Part shown: positions 1 through 3,811 of the stretch, piece after piece | Layout: each line of letters begins with the position of its first letter | How positions within the stretch are numbered: the stretch's first letter is position 1 | Made by a program: the position numbers and the translations under genes | Assembly (NCBI GenBank): GCA_035480635.1 | Contig: DATIHN010000006.1 | Span: 1 to 32,849 of the forward strand | Source: Candidatus Saccharimonadales bacterium | GTDB lineage: Bacteria > Patescibacteriota > Saccharimonadia > UBA4664 > DATIHN01 | DNA: 32,849 nt | Direction of reading: 5' to 3' | Notes under the pieces: model-generated | The model's input: only the letters and a program-made list of their open reading frames with translations | Databases searched by the model: none | Told to the model about the DNA's origin: nothing

Positions 1-834
1 CACATTGCGGCTCTGGCACCCTCCGACCAACCACCACTGCTCAAGCTAGCCCTGCTGGGCCGTCCCAATGTTGGTAAATCCAGCATTCTAAACGCTCTCT
101 GTGGTCGGTCGGCTGCCATCGTATCCGAACAGGCGGGGACCACCCGAGATGTGCGGACTATCAGCCTGAAGGCGCATGGTCAAAACATCCATATTCTCGA
201 TACAGCTGGTTTGCGCCGGCGGGGCAAAATCGTACCCGGAACCGAAAAATTCAGTACTATTCGGACGGCTCAAGCCATTGCCAGTGCCGATATCTGCGCC
301 CTGATAATGGATGCCACTGAATTGGGCGTGGCCGGAGATCAGCATATTGCCGGTATGGTTAAAGAAGCCGGCAAGGGCTTAATTCTAGTGGTTAATAAAT
401 GGGATGCGGTGGAGAGAGATGATAAAACCCAAGCCCACCTGAGTCGGGCTCTAGCTCGTGATCTAGCCTTTGTCGGCTGGGCGCCGCTGGTCTTTACCTC
501 GGCCACCACCAATCTCCATATCCGCCAACTGCTTGAACTAGCCACTCAAATTCACACTCGCCGTAACCAAACTCTTGCCACCGGGCCGCTGAACCGCGTG
601 GTCGAAGACTTGGTCCGAGCGCACCCACCGGCTGGCCTCAAAGGCATTCGACCCAAAATCAATTATGCCACCCAAACCGGGACCAATCCGCCTGAAGTAA
701 CCTTCTTTACCAGCCACCCTCGCGCCATCCACTTTTCCTACTTGCGTTATCTGGAAAACGGCTTACGGTCGGCCTATGACTTTATCGGCACACCAATTAA
801 ACTGGAATTTAGATCTAAGCGAGACAAATTATGA
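1..834 (+). CDS. der: Ribosome-assembly GTPase Der (EngA), 5' truncated by the window edge
   Basis: Der is a tandem-GTPase protein that helps mature the 50S subunit. The reading frame is open from base 1, so the first G domain lies outside the window. What remains is the second G domain and the C-terminal KH-like domain. Visible motifs are the P-loop GRPNVGKS (bases 58-81), G3 DTAG near base 199, G4 NKWD near base 397 and a G5-like SAT near base 502. The last ~70 residues (RPKINYATQTG through FIGTPIKLEF) match the Der KH domain and its usual ending. An internal ATG at 151 falls after the P-loop and cannot be the start. The stop overlaps the pth start as ATGA (831-834), suggesting translational coupling. 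Confidence 0.95.
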   Translation, partial: HIAALAPSDQPPLLKLALLGRPNVGKSSILNALCGRSAAIVSEQAGTTRDVRTISLKAHGQNIHILDTAGLRRRGKIVPGTEKFSTIRTAQAIASADICALIMDATELGVAGDQHIAGMVKEAGKGLILVVNKWDAVERDDKTQAHLSRALARDLAFVGWAPLVFTSATTNLHIRQLLELATQIHTRRNQTLATGPLNRVVEDLVRAHPPAGLKGIRPKINYATQTGTNPPEVTFFTSHPRAIHFSYLRYLENGLRSAYDFIGTPIKLEFRSKRDKL

Positions 835-1394
835 AATTAATTGTTGGATTGGGTAATGTTGGAGCCGGTCATGATCACAATCGCCACAACCTGGGGTTTA
901 TGGTGGTTAATGAGCTAGCTCAGCGAATGGAAGCTGAGTTTGCGGCCAAACCAAATTGGCGGATGGATCTAGCCGAGGTCGGGGAGGGGGCCGACAAGCA
1001 AATACTGGCTAAACCGACTACGATGATGAATCTGAGTGGGCAGGCTATCGGCAAAGTCATGCAGTTTTATAAACTAGAGCCGTCTGAGGTTTGGGTCATC
1101 CATGATGAGTTGGATTTGCAGTTTGGACAATTGCGGGTCCGCGAGGGCGGGGGCGATGCTGGCCACAACGGCGTTAAATCAGTTATTAGTTCGATCGGCC
1201 CTCATTGCATCCGTTGGCGCATTGGTATCGGCCGGCCCCCGGAGCACATGGATTCGGCTGATTTTGTGCTGCAAAACTTTAGCCCCCAAGAAGTGGGGCA
1301 GTTGCCGATGGTTATAAAAGGCGCGGCTGACGCCATTGAACAGGCCCTGGACCACGGCCATGAGGACACAACTCATAAGTTGCTCGAGTCTTAA
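831..1394 (+). CDS. pth: Peptidyl-tRNA hydrolase
   Basis: Pth cleaves the ester bond of peptidyl-tRNAs dropped by ribosomes. The 187 residues match the family length. The catalytic RHN motif is at residues 17-19 (His18), followed by KPTTMMNLSG near residue 60, HDELDL near 90 and GGGDAGHNG near 105. These correspond to the conserved Asn, Asp and Asn that line the active site. The N-terminal loop is unusual: most bacteria have GxxNPGxxY, but here it reads GLGNVGAGH, so the Pro and Tyr are replaced by Val and His. The ATG overlaps the der stop by 4 bases. A long non-coding stretch follows. Confidence 0.96.
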   Translation: MKLIVGLGNVGAGHDHNRHNLGFMVVNELAQRMEAEFAAKPNWRMDLAEVGEGADKQILAKPTTMMNLSGQAIGKVMQFYKLEPSEVWVIHDELDLQFGQLRVREGGGDAGHNGVKSVISSIGPHCIRWRIGIGRPPEHMDSADFVLQNFSPQEVGQLPMVIKGAADAIEQALDHGHEDTTHKLLES

Positions 1395-1411
1395 ACAAGA
1401 GACATTTATCT

Positions 1412-1493
1412 CCCCACCAATTTTTTGTGTAAGCTCTTACTTCTTACTCCTGTAATACTTTGTATGGCTGTCGATACAAAAAAATTGGTGGGG
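1412..1493. repeat. Hairpin A (left outer)
   Basis: The arm CCCCACCAATTTTTTGT (1412-1428) pairs with ACAAAAAAATTGGTGGGG (1476-1493). The loop begins GTGTAAGCT and ends GTCGATAC. The T6 side is next to GTGTAAGCT and the A7 side is next to GTCGATAC. The same asymmetry appears in hairpin D when it is read on the other strand. Confidence 0.9.
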
Positions 1494-1518
1494 TCTGTTT
1501 CTTTTCTGGATCATCTAG

Positions 1519-1569
1519 AGCAGATTGCTCATGGGTATACTCCCACTATCTAATCCTTCGCAATCTGCT
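1519..1569. repeat. Hairpin B (left inner)
   Basis: AGCAGATTGC (1519-1528) pairs perfectly with GCAATCTGCT (1560-1569) around a 31-nt loop containing CTCCCAC. It corresponds to hairpin C in reverse complement, with two compensated stem pairs. Confidence 0.9.
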
Positions 1570-1622
1570 GAATGGGGTTAATAAATACACCCTGCTGGAT
1601 GAAAACCTGAATTAGTCAATTT

Positions 1623-1674
1623 AGCAGGTTGTGAGGGGTTTGGTGGTGGGAGGAAGTAAAACGAACAACCTGCT
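1623..1674. repeat. Hairpin C (right inner)
   Basis: AGCAGGTTGT (1623-1632) pairs perfectly with ACAACCTGCT (1665-1674) around a 32-nt loop. Relative to hairpin B an A-T pair has become G-C and a C-G pair has become T-A. The reverse complement of its loop shares CTCCCAC and most of the following 13 bases with the loop of B. Confidence 0.9.
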
Positions 1675-1697
1675 CCTATTGATCCAAAAGATAAACT

Positions 1698-1781
1698 CCC
1701 CAGCCCATTTTTTTGTATCGACTAAGTTAGTAGTCGTAATGGGAGTATGAAGAGTCAGCTTACACAAAAAATGGGCTGGGG
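1698..1781. repeat. Hairpin D (right outer)
   Basis: CCCCAGCCCATTTTTTTGT (1698-1716) pairs with ACAAAAAATGGGCTGGGG (1764-1781); the pairing can extend one or two bases with a small bulge. Read on the minus strand its loop starts GTGTAAGCT and ends GTCGATAC, exactly as hairpin A does, and it is the same 51 nt long. Confidence 0.9.
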
Positions 1782-1803
1782 GGAGAAGTTGGACCACATC
1801 CGC

Positions 1804-1884
1804 AGGAGATCCTTCGTCCGCCAGCTGGCGGATCGATCAGGATGACATTTCGGGATATTGCCGCGCTTCGCTCGCAATGACGAT
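1804..1884. repeat. Dispersed palindromic repeat of the CERSAAIS type
   Basis: The segment contains the perfect 16-bp palindrome TCCGCCAGCTGGCGGA (1817-1832), then CAGGATGACA, then GCTTCGCTCGCAATGACG (1865-1882). Strings of this kind recur as intergenic repeats in many bacterial genomes. They are often mistranslated as NRHCERSAAIS, which is the frame seen here on the minus strand. Recognition is from memory of the pattern; copy number in this genome cannot be seen. Confidence 0.65.
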
Positions 1885-1915
1885 TGTAAATTGATACTTC
1901 AAAATTGAAAACTGG

Positions 1916-2067
1916 AGCGGTTGAAGTGGGTCGATAGTTTATGGACTTTTTGGTAAAACAAAAGTCCAAGCAGGTGGTTACTTGGACTTTTGTCACACCC
2001 TTCAACGCCAGCACCCAAGGCGCGTTTGTCGGTCTCATTGTATATTAATAGACCGCGGGTTGAAGGG
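1916..2067. repeat. Structured segment with mutually exclusive pairings
   Basis: ACAAAAGTCCAAG (1958-1970) pairs perfectly with CTTGGACTTTTGT (1981-1993), 13 bp around a 10-nt loop. The same middle arm can also pair with TGGACTTTTT just upstream (from 1943). On the outside, GTTGAAG near 1919 can pair with CTTCAAC (2000-2006), which can instead pair with GTTGAAG near 2059. A further stem GGTCT/AGACC (2031-2035/2050-2054) lies between. Two three-way choices nested together resemble an attenuator or switch, but no gene follows directly. Confidence 0.6.
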
Positions 2068-2189: not shown

Positions 2190-2209
2190 AACTATTGTCA
2201 ATACGACTT

Positions 2210-3058
2210 ATGCAAATTTCTGAAATTACCCCGATAGACTCAAATTACCCCGATAGTTTAAGGGAGATTCCGTCTGTCCCTAAAACTCTATATTTTTTGG
2301 GTGAATTGCCAAATCGGCCAACAGTAGCCATCGTTGGGGCCAGGCGCCCAACCGAATACGGCAAGCGGGTTACATATCAGCTAGCCAGCGAACTGGCCAG
2401 TGCCGGTATTGCCATCGTTAGCGGCTTGGCCTATGGCCTGGATAGCATTGCTCATACTGGAGCCCTGGATGCTGGCGGCCAGACCATTGCGGTCTTGGCC
2501 GGCGGGCTGCACAAAATTTATCCAGCCGGACATCGCAATCTGGCCATTAGAATTCTCCAATCCGGCGGCGGCATCGTTAGTGAATATCCCGAGGGCATGC
2601 CATCACTCAGACAATATTTCCCTGCCAGGAACCGCATCGTCTCCGGACTATCACTGGCCGTCATTATCCCAGAAGCGGAAGCTTCCAGCGGTTCGCTGAT
2701 CACGGCCAAGTTTGCCTTGAATCAAAACCGCCTAGTTATGGCCGTTCCTGGCAATATCACCAGCCCGACTAGCGCCGGCCCGAACAACTTAATCAGATCC
2801 GGAGCTATTCCGGTTACAAACTCCAGCGACGTTTTGGCGGCACTCGATCTAACTACGGCCGATGCTAAACCGACTGCCCAACCCAAAAGTAAGGAAGAGG
2901 CTCTGATATTGGAACTCTTAGAAAAAGGAATTAATTCCAGTGAGGATTTGATTCAAGCCAGTGAACTGGGAGCCAGTCAGTTTGCCAACGTTATAACGCT
3001 CATGGAAATCACCGGCAAAGTCCGCAACCTGGGGGCCGGCCAATGGGTGGCCAGGTAA
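2210..3058 (+). CDS. dprA: DNA-processing protein DprA (Smf)
   Basis: DprA binds incoming single-stranded DNA during natural transformation and loads RecA on it. The Rossmann-like core shows VGARRPTEYGK near residue 45, SGLAYGLDSIAHTGAL, AVLAGGLHKIYPAGH, FPARNRIVSGLS and SSGSLITAKFAL, all typical of the family. The C-terminal ~55 residues form a small winged-helix (DML1-like) domain. The N-terminal SAM domain seen in some DprA proteins is absent. A TTG at 2195 would add five residues; ATG 2210 is preferred because its product begins like relatives (QISEITPIDSNYP). There is no clear Shine-Dalgarno sequence. It stands alone between repeats and an orphan pair; competence is common in Saccharibacteria. 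Confidence 0.95.
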   Translation: MQISEITPIDSNYPDSLREIPSVPKTLYFLGELPNRPTVAIVGARRPTEYGKRVTYQLASELASAGIAIVSGLAYGLDSIAHTGALDAGGQTIAVLAGGLHKIYPAGHRNLAIRILQSGGGIVSEYPEGMPSLRQYFPARNRIVSGLSLAVIIPEAEASSGSLITAKFALNQNRLVMAVPGNITSPTSAGPNNLIRSGAIPVTNSSDVLAALDLTTADAKPTAQPKSKEEALILELLEKGINSSEDLIQASELGASQFANVITLMEITGKVRNLGAGQWVAR

Positions 3059-3127: not shown

Positions 3128-3463
3128 ATGCAACGACTAAAGTTGATCGGCCTCGGTGTTCTGGCGTTTGTATTGCACGGCGCAGTCCGCTTGAGATACC
3201 GGCGCGAGACCAAGCAGGAACGTGACATCAGAGAGACAAACAACCTGATCGAATGCGTCGAGTACGCGTTCGAAGAAGGCAGAGACCCCGAAGGGGAGCT
3301 GCTTGGGTTGGTTGCAACAGAACTCTGCGAGCAGCTGCAAAAGGGACTGCCACCGGAGCTGGCTGCCAGAGCCCACGAGGCGGGCTCCAAGGCAGTTGGT
3401 GAATCATTCCGACGCATGTCTGTTGCTCAGCGGGCCAAATCAAACTCCTACTCAAGCTCGTAA
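3128..3463 (+). CDS. Small membrane-anchored protein of unknown function
   Basis: The 111-residue product is not recognised. It begins with a short positive stretch and one hydrophobic segment (residues 5-21, LIGLGVLAFVLHGAV), followed by RLRYRRETK. That suggests a single N-terminal membrane anchor with a charged soluble part; the middle is acidic and helical (ECVEYAFEEGRDPEGELLG). GGAG about 8 bases before the ATG serves as ribosome-binding site. It has its own consensus promoter, and the next gene follows after 33 bp. Codon choice looks richer in G/C-ending codons than in dprA or topA (an impression, not counted). It may be an acquired or fast-evolving gene. Confidence 0.65.
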   Translation: MQRLKLIGLGVLAFVLHGAVRLRYRRETKQERDIRETNNLIECVEYAFEEGRDPEGELLGLVATELCEQLQKGLPPELAARAHEAGSKAVGESFRRMSVAQRAKSNSYSSS

Positions 3464-3483
3464 GTAGGCTTGGGAATTTCGAC

Positions 3484-3490
3484 AGGAAGG
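3484..3490 (+). promoter_or_regulatory. Shine-Dalgarno site that fixes the next start
   Basis: AGGAAGG lies 6 bases before GTG 3497. It lies inside the coding sequence if translation began at the upstream TTG 3470, so it argues for the GTG start. Confidence 0.7.
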
Positions 3491-3496
3491 CATACC

Positions 3497-3811
3497 GTGC
3501 GCACCCGATCCCAGACCTTGATCACGATCCTGATCCTGACCGGCATGGCGACGCTCTTCGGCATTATAAGGATGCGCGATAAGCGCATTGACTCCCGCGC
3601 TCAAGCGGAGGTAGACACAATCCTGCGTCTGTTTGATCTCTACCGGATCCACAGGCGGCTGACCCCAAGCGAACGCCAGCGGCTCGAAAGAGCCCTGCAA
3701 TCGCTTCAGGATCTCGAGGTAGAGCACGACCTGACTTACGGACGTTGGGTCTACGACATGGTCTTTGCAGCCCAATGGGTCCTAACCCTAGAGACTCGTC
3801 GAGCGGCCTGA
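3497..3811 (+). CDS. Small membrane-anchored protein of unknown function
   Basis: The GTG start is chosen over the longer TTG 3470 because of the AGGAAGG site 6 bases upstream. The 104-residue product opens RTRSQT, then one hydrophobic segment LITILILTGMATLFGII (about residues 7-23), then the basic RMRDKR. The remainder is helical, with LTPSERQRLERALQSLQDLEVEHDL. The build matches that of the gene 33 bp upstream: one anchor, a basic flank and a charged helical tail. The two are probably co-transcribed and may act together, though they share no clear sequence similarity. Tandem hairpins and a T-rich run follow. No family is recognised. Confidence 0.65.
   Translation: MRTRSQTLITILILTGMATLFGIIRMRDKRIDSRAQAEVDTILRLFDLYRIHRRLTPSERQRLERALQSLQDLEVEHDLTYGRWVYDMVFAAQWVLTLETRRAA

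Follow-up and report, generated by a model that had tools for sequence, protein, structure and literature searches.

Small interspersed repeats of bacteria

Several families of small bacterial repeats offer points of comparison for the element described here. BOX elements of Streptococcus are modular (boxA-boxB-boxC), multi-copy and intergenic, fold when transcribed and often lie at gene 3' ends (PMC3049150). Correia/NEMIS, RUP and ERIC repeats are short, carry no autonomous gene, end in terminal inverted repeats, are AT-rich relative to their hosts and have a palindromic fold (PMC2229807, PMC3049150). RUP and BOX produce target duplications, and the ends of RUP are common to an IS630. REPINs, which are inverted REP doublets, place a conserved unit in inverted pairing, show compensatory changes and form hairpins as ssDNA or RNA (PMC3116915). 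The CIR repeats of Caulobacter are intergenic, with a two-armed fold and a linker (PMC2229807).

The window, meaning the whole 32,849-nucleotide stretch of DNA that we analysed, contains a mirror-image element between pth and dprA. Our best reading places it among the small interspersed repeats of the BOX/Correia/RUP/REPIN kind. It differs from BOX in having no tandem boxB-like array and in having a mirror form, as well as in its host, its lower copy number and the lack of a visible target duplication. Target duplication, found in both RUP and BOX, was not found here, nor was a partner IS. Correia, RUP and ERIC fold as one end-to-end hairpin, whereas this element has three separate hairpins. 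Relative to REPINs its units are larger, singles predominate and no Y1/RAYT gene was found, while CIR repeats are about 110 bp with GANTC loops and no mirror composites. The earlier note, made from the sequence of the window, knew of no named family with the mirror layout; the exact family is indeed unnamed in the sources searched, but comparable modular and palindromic small repeats are known.

Anatomy of the mirror form

The features of the locus, with the evidence for each, are as follows.

831..1394, + strand: pth (peptidyl-tRNA hydrolase), the upstream gene (Pfam PF01195)
1404..1792, + strand: whole mirror-form repeat element (own-genome BLASTN; boundaries from comparison of copies)
1411..1569, + strand: arm A, outer hairpin type A plus inner hairpin (covariance model 177.2 bits, E 3.6e-39)
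1412..1493, + strand: outer hairpin A, stem CCCCACCAATTTTTT / AAAAAATTGGTGGGG (repeat search and alignment fold)
1519..1569, + strand: inner hairpin A, AGCAGATTGC / GCAATCTGCT (sequence and alignment fold)
1570..1622, + strand: 53-nt core of the mirror form (comparison of copies)
1623..1781, - strand: arm B, outer hairpin type B plus inner hairpin, inverted (covariance model 165.5 bits, E 2.0e-36)
1623..1674, - strand: inner hairpin B, with two compensated pairs relative to A (sequence and alignment fold)
1698..1781, - strand: outer hairpin B, stem CCCCAGCCCATTTTTT / AAAAAATGGGCTGGGG (repeat search and alignment fold)
1775..1792, - strand: right terminal inverted repeat CCAACTTCTCCCCCCAGC; family consensus CTAAYTTCTCTCCCCACC (genome pattern search)
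2195..3058, + strand: dprA, the downstream gene (Pfam PF02481)

The element begins about 10 nt past the pth stop. As the earlier note had described, two oppositely oriented arms of about 160 bp, 1411-1569 (+) and 1623-1781 (-), surround a core of exactly 53 nt, and the halves have 67% reverse-complement identity across about 390 nt. The outer stems differ yet are each 100% matched, over 15 bp in A (1412-1426/1479-1493) and 16 bp in B (1698-1713/1766-1781). Their loops, given in the note as exactly 51 nt, are of equal length, but 52 nt lie between the stem halves in both. Between the inner stems, AGCAGATTGC/GCAATCTGCT and AGCAGGTTGT/ACAACCTGCT, two pairs are different and each change is compensated, again as claimed. 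A small palindrome, GAGCAgatTGCTC, sits within the 5' side of inner hairpin A in the window copy.

The window element folds strongly as RNA (z = -12 against shuffles). The four-hairpin anatomy of the note is present, but at minimum energy the entire mirror form folds into a single long hairpin, with arm A paired to arm B. Four hairpins are thus one alternative structure, which local folding would have to favour. The element contains no credible ORF, in agreement with the note; a 92-aa ORF at 1760-2038 (-) matches nothing in Pfam. Intrinsic terminators and promoters within the element show no excess over shuffles. A tRNA or tmRNA identity was also considered, and none was detected.

Copies in the own genome

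We searched the genome to which the window belongs (788 kb, 27 contigs, 97% complete). BLASTN gave 39 matches at 18 loci, the window locus included. Full-length arms number 21 (158-162 nt, E < 1e-33), and a covariance model built from them recovered exactly the same 21 at the 18 loci; below these came a gap, then just weak reverse-strand self-matches. Dispersed, full-length arms with common ends are thus observed directly, as are mirror copies at three unrelated sites: the window, C16:117856-118238 (386 nt, 90% identity to the window copy by BLASTN) and C23:20742-21132 (82% identity by BLASTN over an alignment of about 390 nt). The mirror layout is therefore a minority form (3 of 18 loci). The remaining 15 loci are one-armed; 12 carry single forms with third hairpin and tail, and three carry arms alone. 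The single form continues beyond the arm with a third hairpin, GTCGTTCGGCC...GGCCGAACGAC, and then a purine-rich tail, making a standard unit of ~340 nt (terminal repeat, outer, inner and third hairpin, tail). The 53-nt core of the mirror form occupies the position of this third hairpin.

On the opposite strand the tail resembles the left end of the element, i.e., it is a decayed inverted terminal repeat. The tail at L022 (C19:38201) keeps a near-exact copy of the element end, GTAAGAAGAGTGAGCTTACACAAAAAATTGGTGGGG, and in L020b and the C22/C21 copy it terminates in TCTCTCCCCACCC. The consensus CTAAYTTCTCTCCCCACC is found at both ends of the mirror form; its right-end version is recognisable in L020b and L015/C22 and decayed in most single copies. 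A genome pattern search placed it in family copies only, bar one chance match with 3 mismatches. Truncated relics are nearly absent, being limited to half-hairpin pieces at L011, L019 and L022; an old mobile family should have left more, and this counts against mobility. Extra left outer-hairpin halves lie just outside the L011 (around 2028-2055) and L019 (around 492-522) copies, set off by a common CATCAGTAGGYTRCATTCTA segment, and because of these we describe the element ends as ragged. The right end is degenerate in most single copies.

The end of contig C22 overlaps the start of C21 (C21:1-141) exactly over 141 nt inside one copy (L015, L039), indicating that the repeat broke the assembly. 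C22:12207-12349, which had looked like an armless third hairpin, was rejected as such, since this overlap makes it part of the L015 copy. Further copies at contig ends may be hidden from the count.

Probable mobility

The copies are short (160-390 nt), multi-copy, dispersed over 18 loci and non-coding, have terminal inverted repeats (CTAAYTTCTCTCCCCACC), are AT-rich relative to the host (GC 41-45% against 51% for the window) and are strongly base-paired. On these traits we call the element MITE-like. In our judgement it is probably a modular, non-coding repeat restricted to one lineage, with the behaviour of a MITE-like non-autonomous mobile element. The suggestion of a non-autonomous element in the earlier note is supported by the occurrence at 18 loci in unrelated gene contexts, with a 386-nt mirror unit at three of them. 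No target-site duplication was found in six copies (direct repeats averaged 4.2 nt in own flanks against 3.5 nt in swapped flanks), and an end-motif search of the own genome found no autonomous IS sharing the element ends. The transposase families searched, Y1_Tnp, DDE_Tnp_1 and rve (PF01797, PF01609, PF00665), are absent from the 97%-complete genome.

The missing Y1 transposase bears on whether these are REPIN/RAYT-type elements, in which an IS200-like Y1 enzyme mobilises inverted pairs in the form of folded ssDNA. Single and inverted-pair forms, conserved ends and compensating spacers do resemble REP singlets and REPINs (PMC3116915). However, PF01797 gave 0 matches in the genome, in a search whose control was positive in 5 of 14 known genomes; singles outnumber pairs (inverted pairs at 3 of 18 loci); and the units are 160-340 nt against 20-40 nt for REP palindromes. 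We find this origin very improbable.

For the MITE-like element, the window form would have arisen when one arm was joined to a second, oppositely oriented arm that replaced the third hairpin. The 390-nt mirror product would then have dispersed to at least three loci, presumably moved by a trans-acting enzyme. Mosaics would come from ectopic recombination or from gene conversion among the copies, and stem matching might be kept through fold-dependent mobility or through template-switch repair of hairpins.

Distribution outside the genome

The earlier note had proposed a covariance-model search and allowed that, if related genomes had no other copy or homologous fold and no transcript existed, the element might be a chance or one-off duplication. 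For the own genome this refutation fails, since the 17 other loci and the strong fold place the element far from chance; elsewhere no copy was found. BLASTN of 98 relatives, none from the family of the host, gave no copy. The covariance model, so productive in the own genome, returned nothing from 392 genomes of the class and nothing beyond one chance-level match from 379 genomes of the phylum; in these searches of about 770 genomes together, the own genome is the sole member of its family. The phylum match (G731; E 0.006 with 380 genomes searched) covers 69 nt of the 159-position model and was judged chance. Exact gapped patterns, which are blind to diverged copies, found none in GTDB contigs or IMG/VR, and phages and plasmids gave no related sequence; the collections searched may omit records very close to the genome of the window. 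Rfam had no match at the gathering threshold. At relaxed thresholds there were sub-threshold matches only, nearly all to animal miRNA-type long-hairpin models, and these were set aside. Lineage restriction is our best reading of the family. On that reading, a small self-contained repeat of one lineage takes up some 0.8% of a genome streamlined to 0.8 Mb.

Stem pairing and module reassortment

Across the 21 arms, 98.0% of stem cells are paired. Both sides are changed in 7 pairs, where shuffles give 3.8 and slid controls 0-1; the covariation score reaches 0.139, compared with 0.061. The shuffles leave relatedness uncontrolled. A second test therefore used recombination. Module distances among the 12 single-form copies show the outer-stem halves to be correlated (Mantel r 0.45, p 0.0045), whereas the outer-hairpin loop gives r 0.15 and -0.03 with the stem halves and other module distances (loop, hp2, hp3) are uncorrelated between copies. 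Inter-site linkage falls with distance from a mean r2 of 0.37 to 0.07, with 22 four-gamete intervals. At a distance of 72-80 columns, for which the mean r2 is 0.12, paired stem positions still show 0.67-0.68. Single loop sites can be linked to the stem at an intermediate level (up to 0.65), and the contrast, though clear, is therefore not absolute. Hairpin hp3 adds two compensated pairs (G-C to A-T and T-A to C-G, both in L020b and L024), and others lie at columns 18/73 (L017, L024) and at columns 4/86 (L020a). Both the reassortment and the maintained pairing can be read directly from the copies, and since the outer-stem halves stay correlated across a largely reassorting loop and modules, pairing is actively maintained. 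A composite of exchangeable modules is also what characterises BOX, and the exchange seen here is most like that of BOX elements.

In L015 and L023 the outer stem combines a type-B left half with a type-A right half and pairs incompletely, while L016 has a loop identical to that of L015 but a matched A stem. Halves are thus exchanged singly, and mismatched stems persist for a while at least. Template switching in replication can yield multi-base compensatory changes and matched stems without selection (PMC8794818). The data fit selection on a fold and also fit a process that copies one stem half onto its partner. The earlier note took the co-varying stems to mean that the fold was under selection; the co-variation is statistically real, but the hybrids and template switching weaken the step to selection.

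Structure might have arisen free of selection altogether, with the stems of quasi-palindromes matched through replication template switching or through gene conversion of hairpins, and with spread by recombination instead of transposition. The change between types A and B shifts several stem positions at once, as expected of template switching (PMC8794818), and the one-sided intermediates L015 and L023, the module reassortment and the ragged ends without duplication are all in keeping with it. If this were true, the co-variation would be uninformative about function. It leaves unexplained, however, the arrival of 390-nt units at unrelated loci and the loop blocks GTAAGCT, GTCGATAC and GAGCAGATTGCTCA, which are invariant in all 21 arms, and we hold it to be quite unlikely. 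Most likely the element is a mobile passenger: its parts are shuffled from copy to copy, yet its hairpins stay matched. The 21 arms and the known intermediates make a clean data set, all from one genome, for telling selection on a fold from template-switch maintenance of hairpins.

We also considered a tuned long-range pairing of the tail with the hp1 loop (-30.7 against -24.3 kcal/mol for a shuffled tail). It was rejected because the tail shows no preference for its own loop (p 0.29), and the pairing reflects the common ancestry of the terminal repeat.

Gene context and probable transcription

Most identified neighbours of the copies are housekeeping genes by Pfam of the flanking ORFs. Besides pth and dprA they include EF-G, PGK, TpiA, GroEL-like, DnaJ, TruB, TsaD, Mur ligase and histidine kinases, and in another flanking pair a peptide release factor is followed by an ABC ATPase. 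They have no pathway in common. Pfam recognised no transposase beside any copy, although it assigned nothing to several of the flanking ORFs. Among 13 identifiable cases, 10 have the left (5') end behind the stop of a co-oriented gene; the right (3') side gives 2 of 7, and the bias is non-significant (one-sided Fisher p 0.052). This placement of left ends behind co-oriented stops is suggestive only. Many copies begin right after such a stop codon, which makes their transcription within a 3' UTR or an intercistronic RNA probable; once transcribed, they may secondarily influence transcript ends.

Such a position raises the question of a functional structured RNA family, 3'-UTR or intercistronic elements kept by selection on the fold and the invariant loops, which might stabilise the transcript, mark a site of processing or protein binding, or act as a weak terminator. 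Loop columns without variation and stems that covary among copies about 80% identical, full-length arms with almost no fragments, and the 5' bias would all suit it. That bias is short of significance, though, the neighbours share no pathway, hybrid stems are tolerated in L015 and L023, and neither Rfam nor any relative searched holds a trace. Moreover, G-U and A-C departures in the stems are about equally frequent, so we see no strand preference and no sign of RNA rather than DNA. A structured RNA of this sort seems rather unlikely. The proposal may also be framed as an unnamed multi-copy RNA that sits behind core genes of this bacterium, CPR-like according to the earlier note and its genome size. 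Selection would keep the stems complementary, and constant ectopic recombination would swap loops and modules among ~18 loci. So framed, it is in our view unlikely.

Around the window copy, a second, distinct palindromic segment follows the element at 1800-1890 (CCGCCAGCTGGCGG at 1818; CGCTTCGCTCGCAATGACG at 1864), and motifs of the CATTGCGA type also lie near L019 and L021. Two consecutive short ORFs between dprA and topA (3128-3463 and 3470-3811; 111 and 113 aa) have a hydrophobic start and no Pfam match. A perfect 13-bp hairpin, ACAAAAGTCCAAG/CTTGGACTTTTGT, lies at 1958-1993 between the element and dprA. At L020, two oppositely oriented copies, C16:124928-125085 (+) and C16:126111-126268 (-), flank the triosephosphate isomerase gene in a composite-like arrangement, with PGK beyond one of the two.
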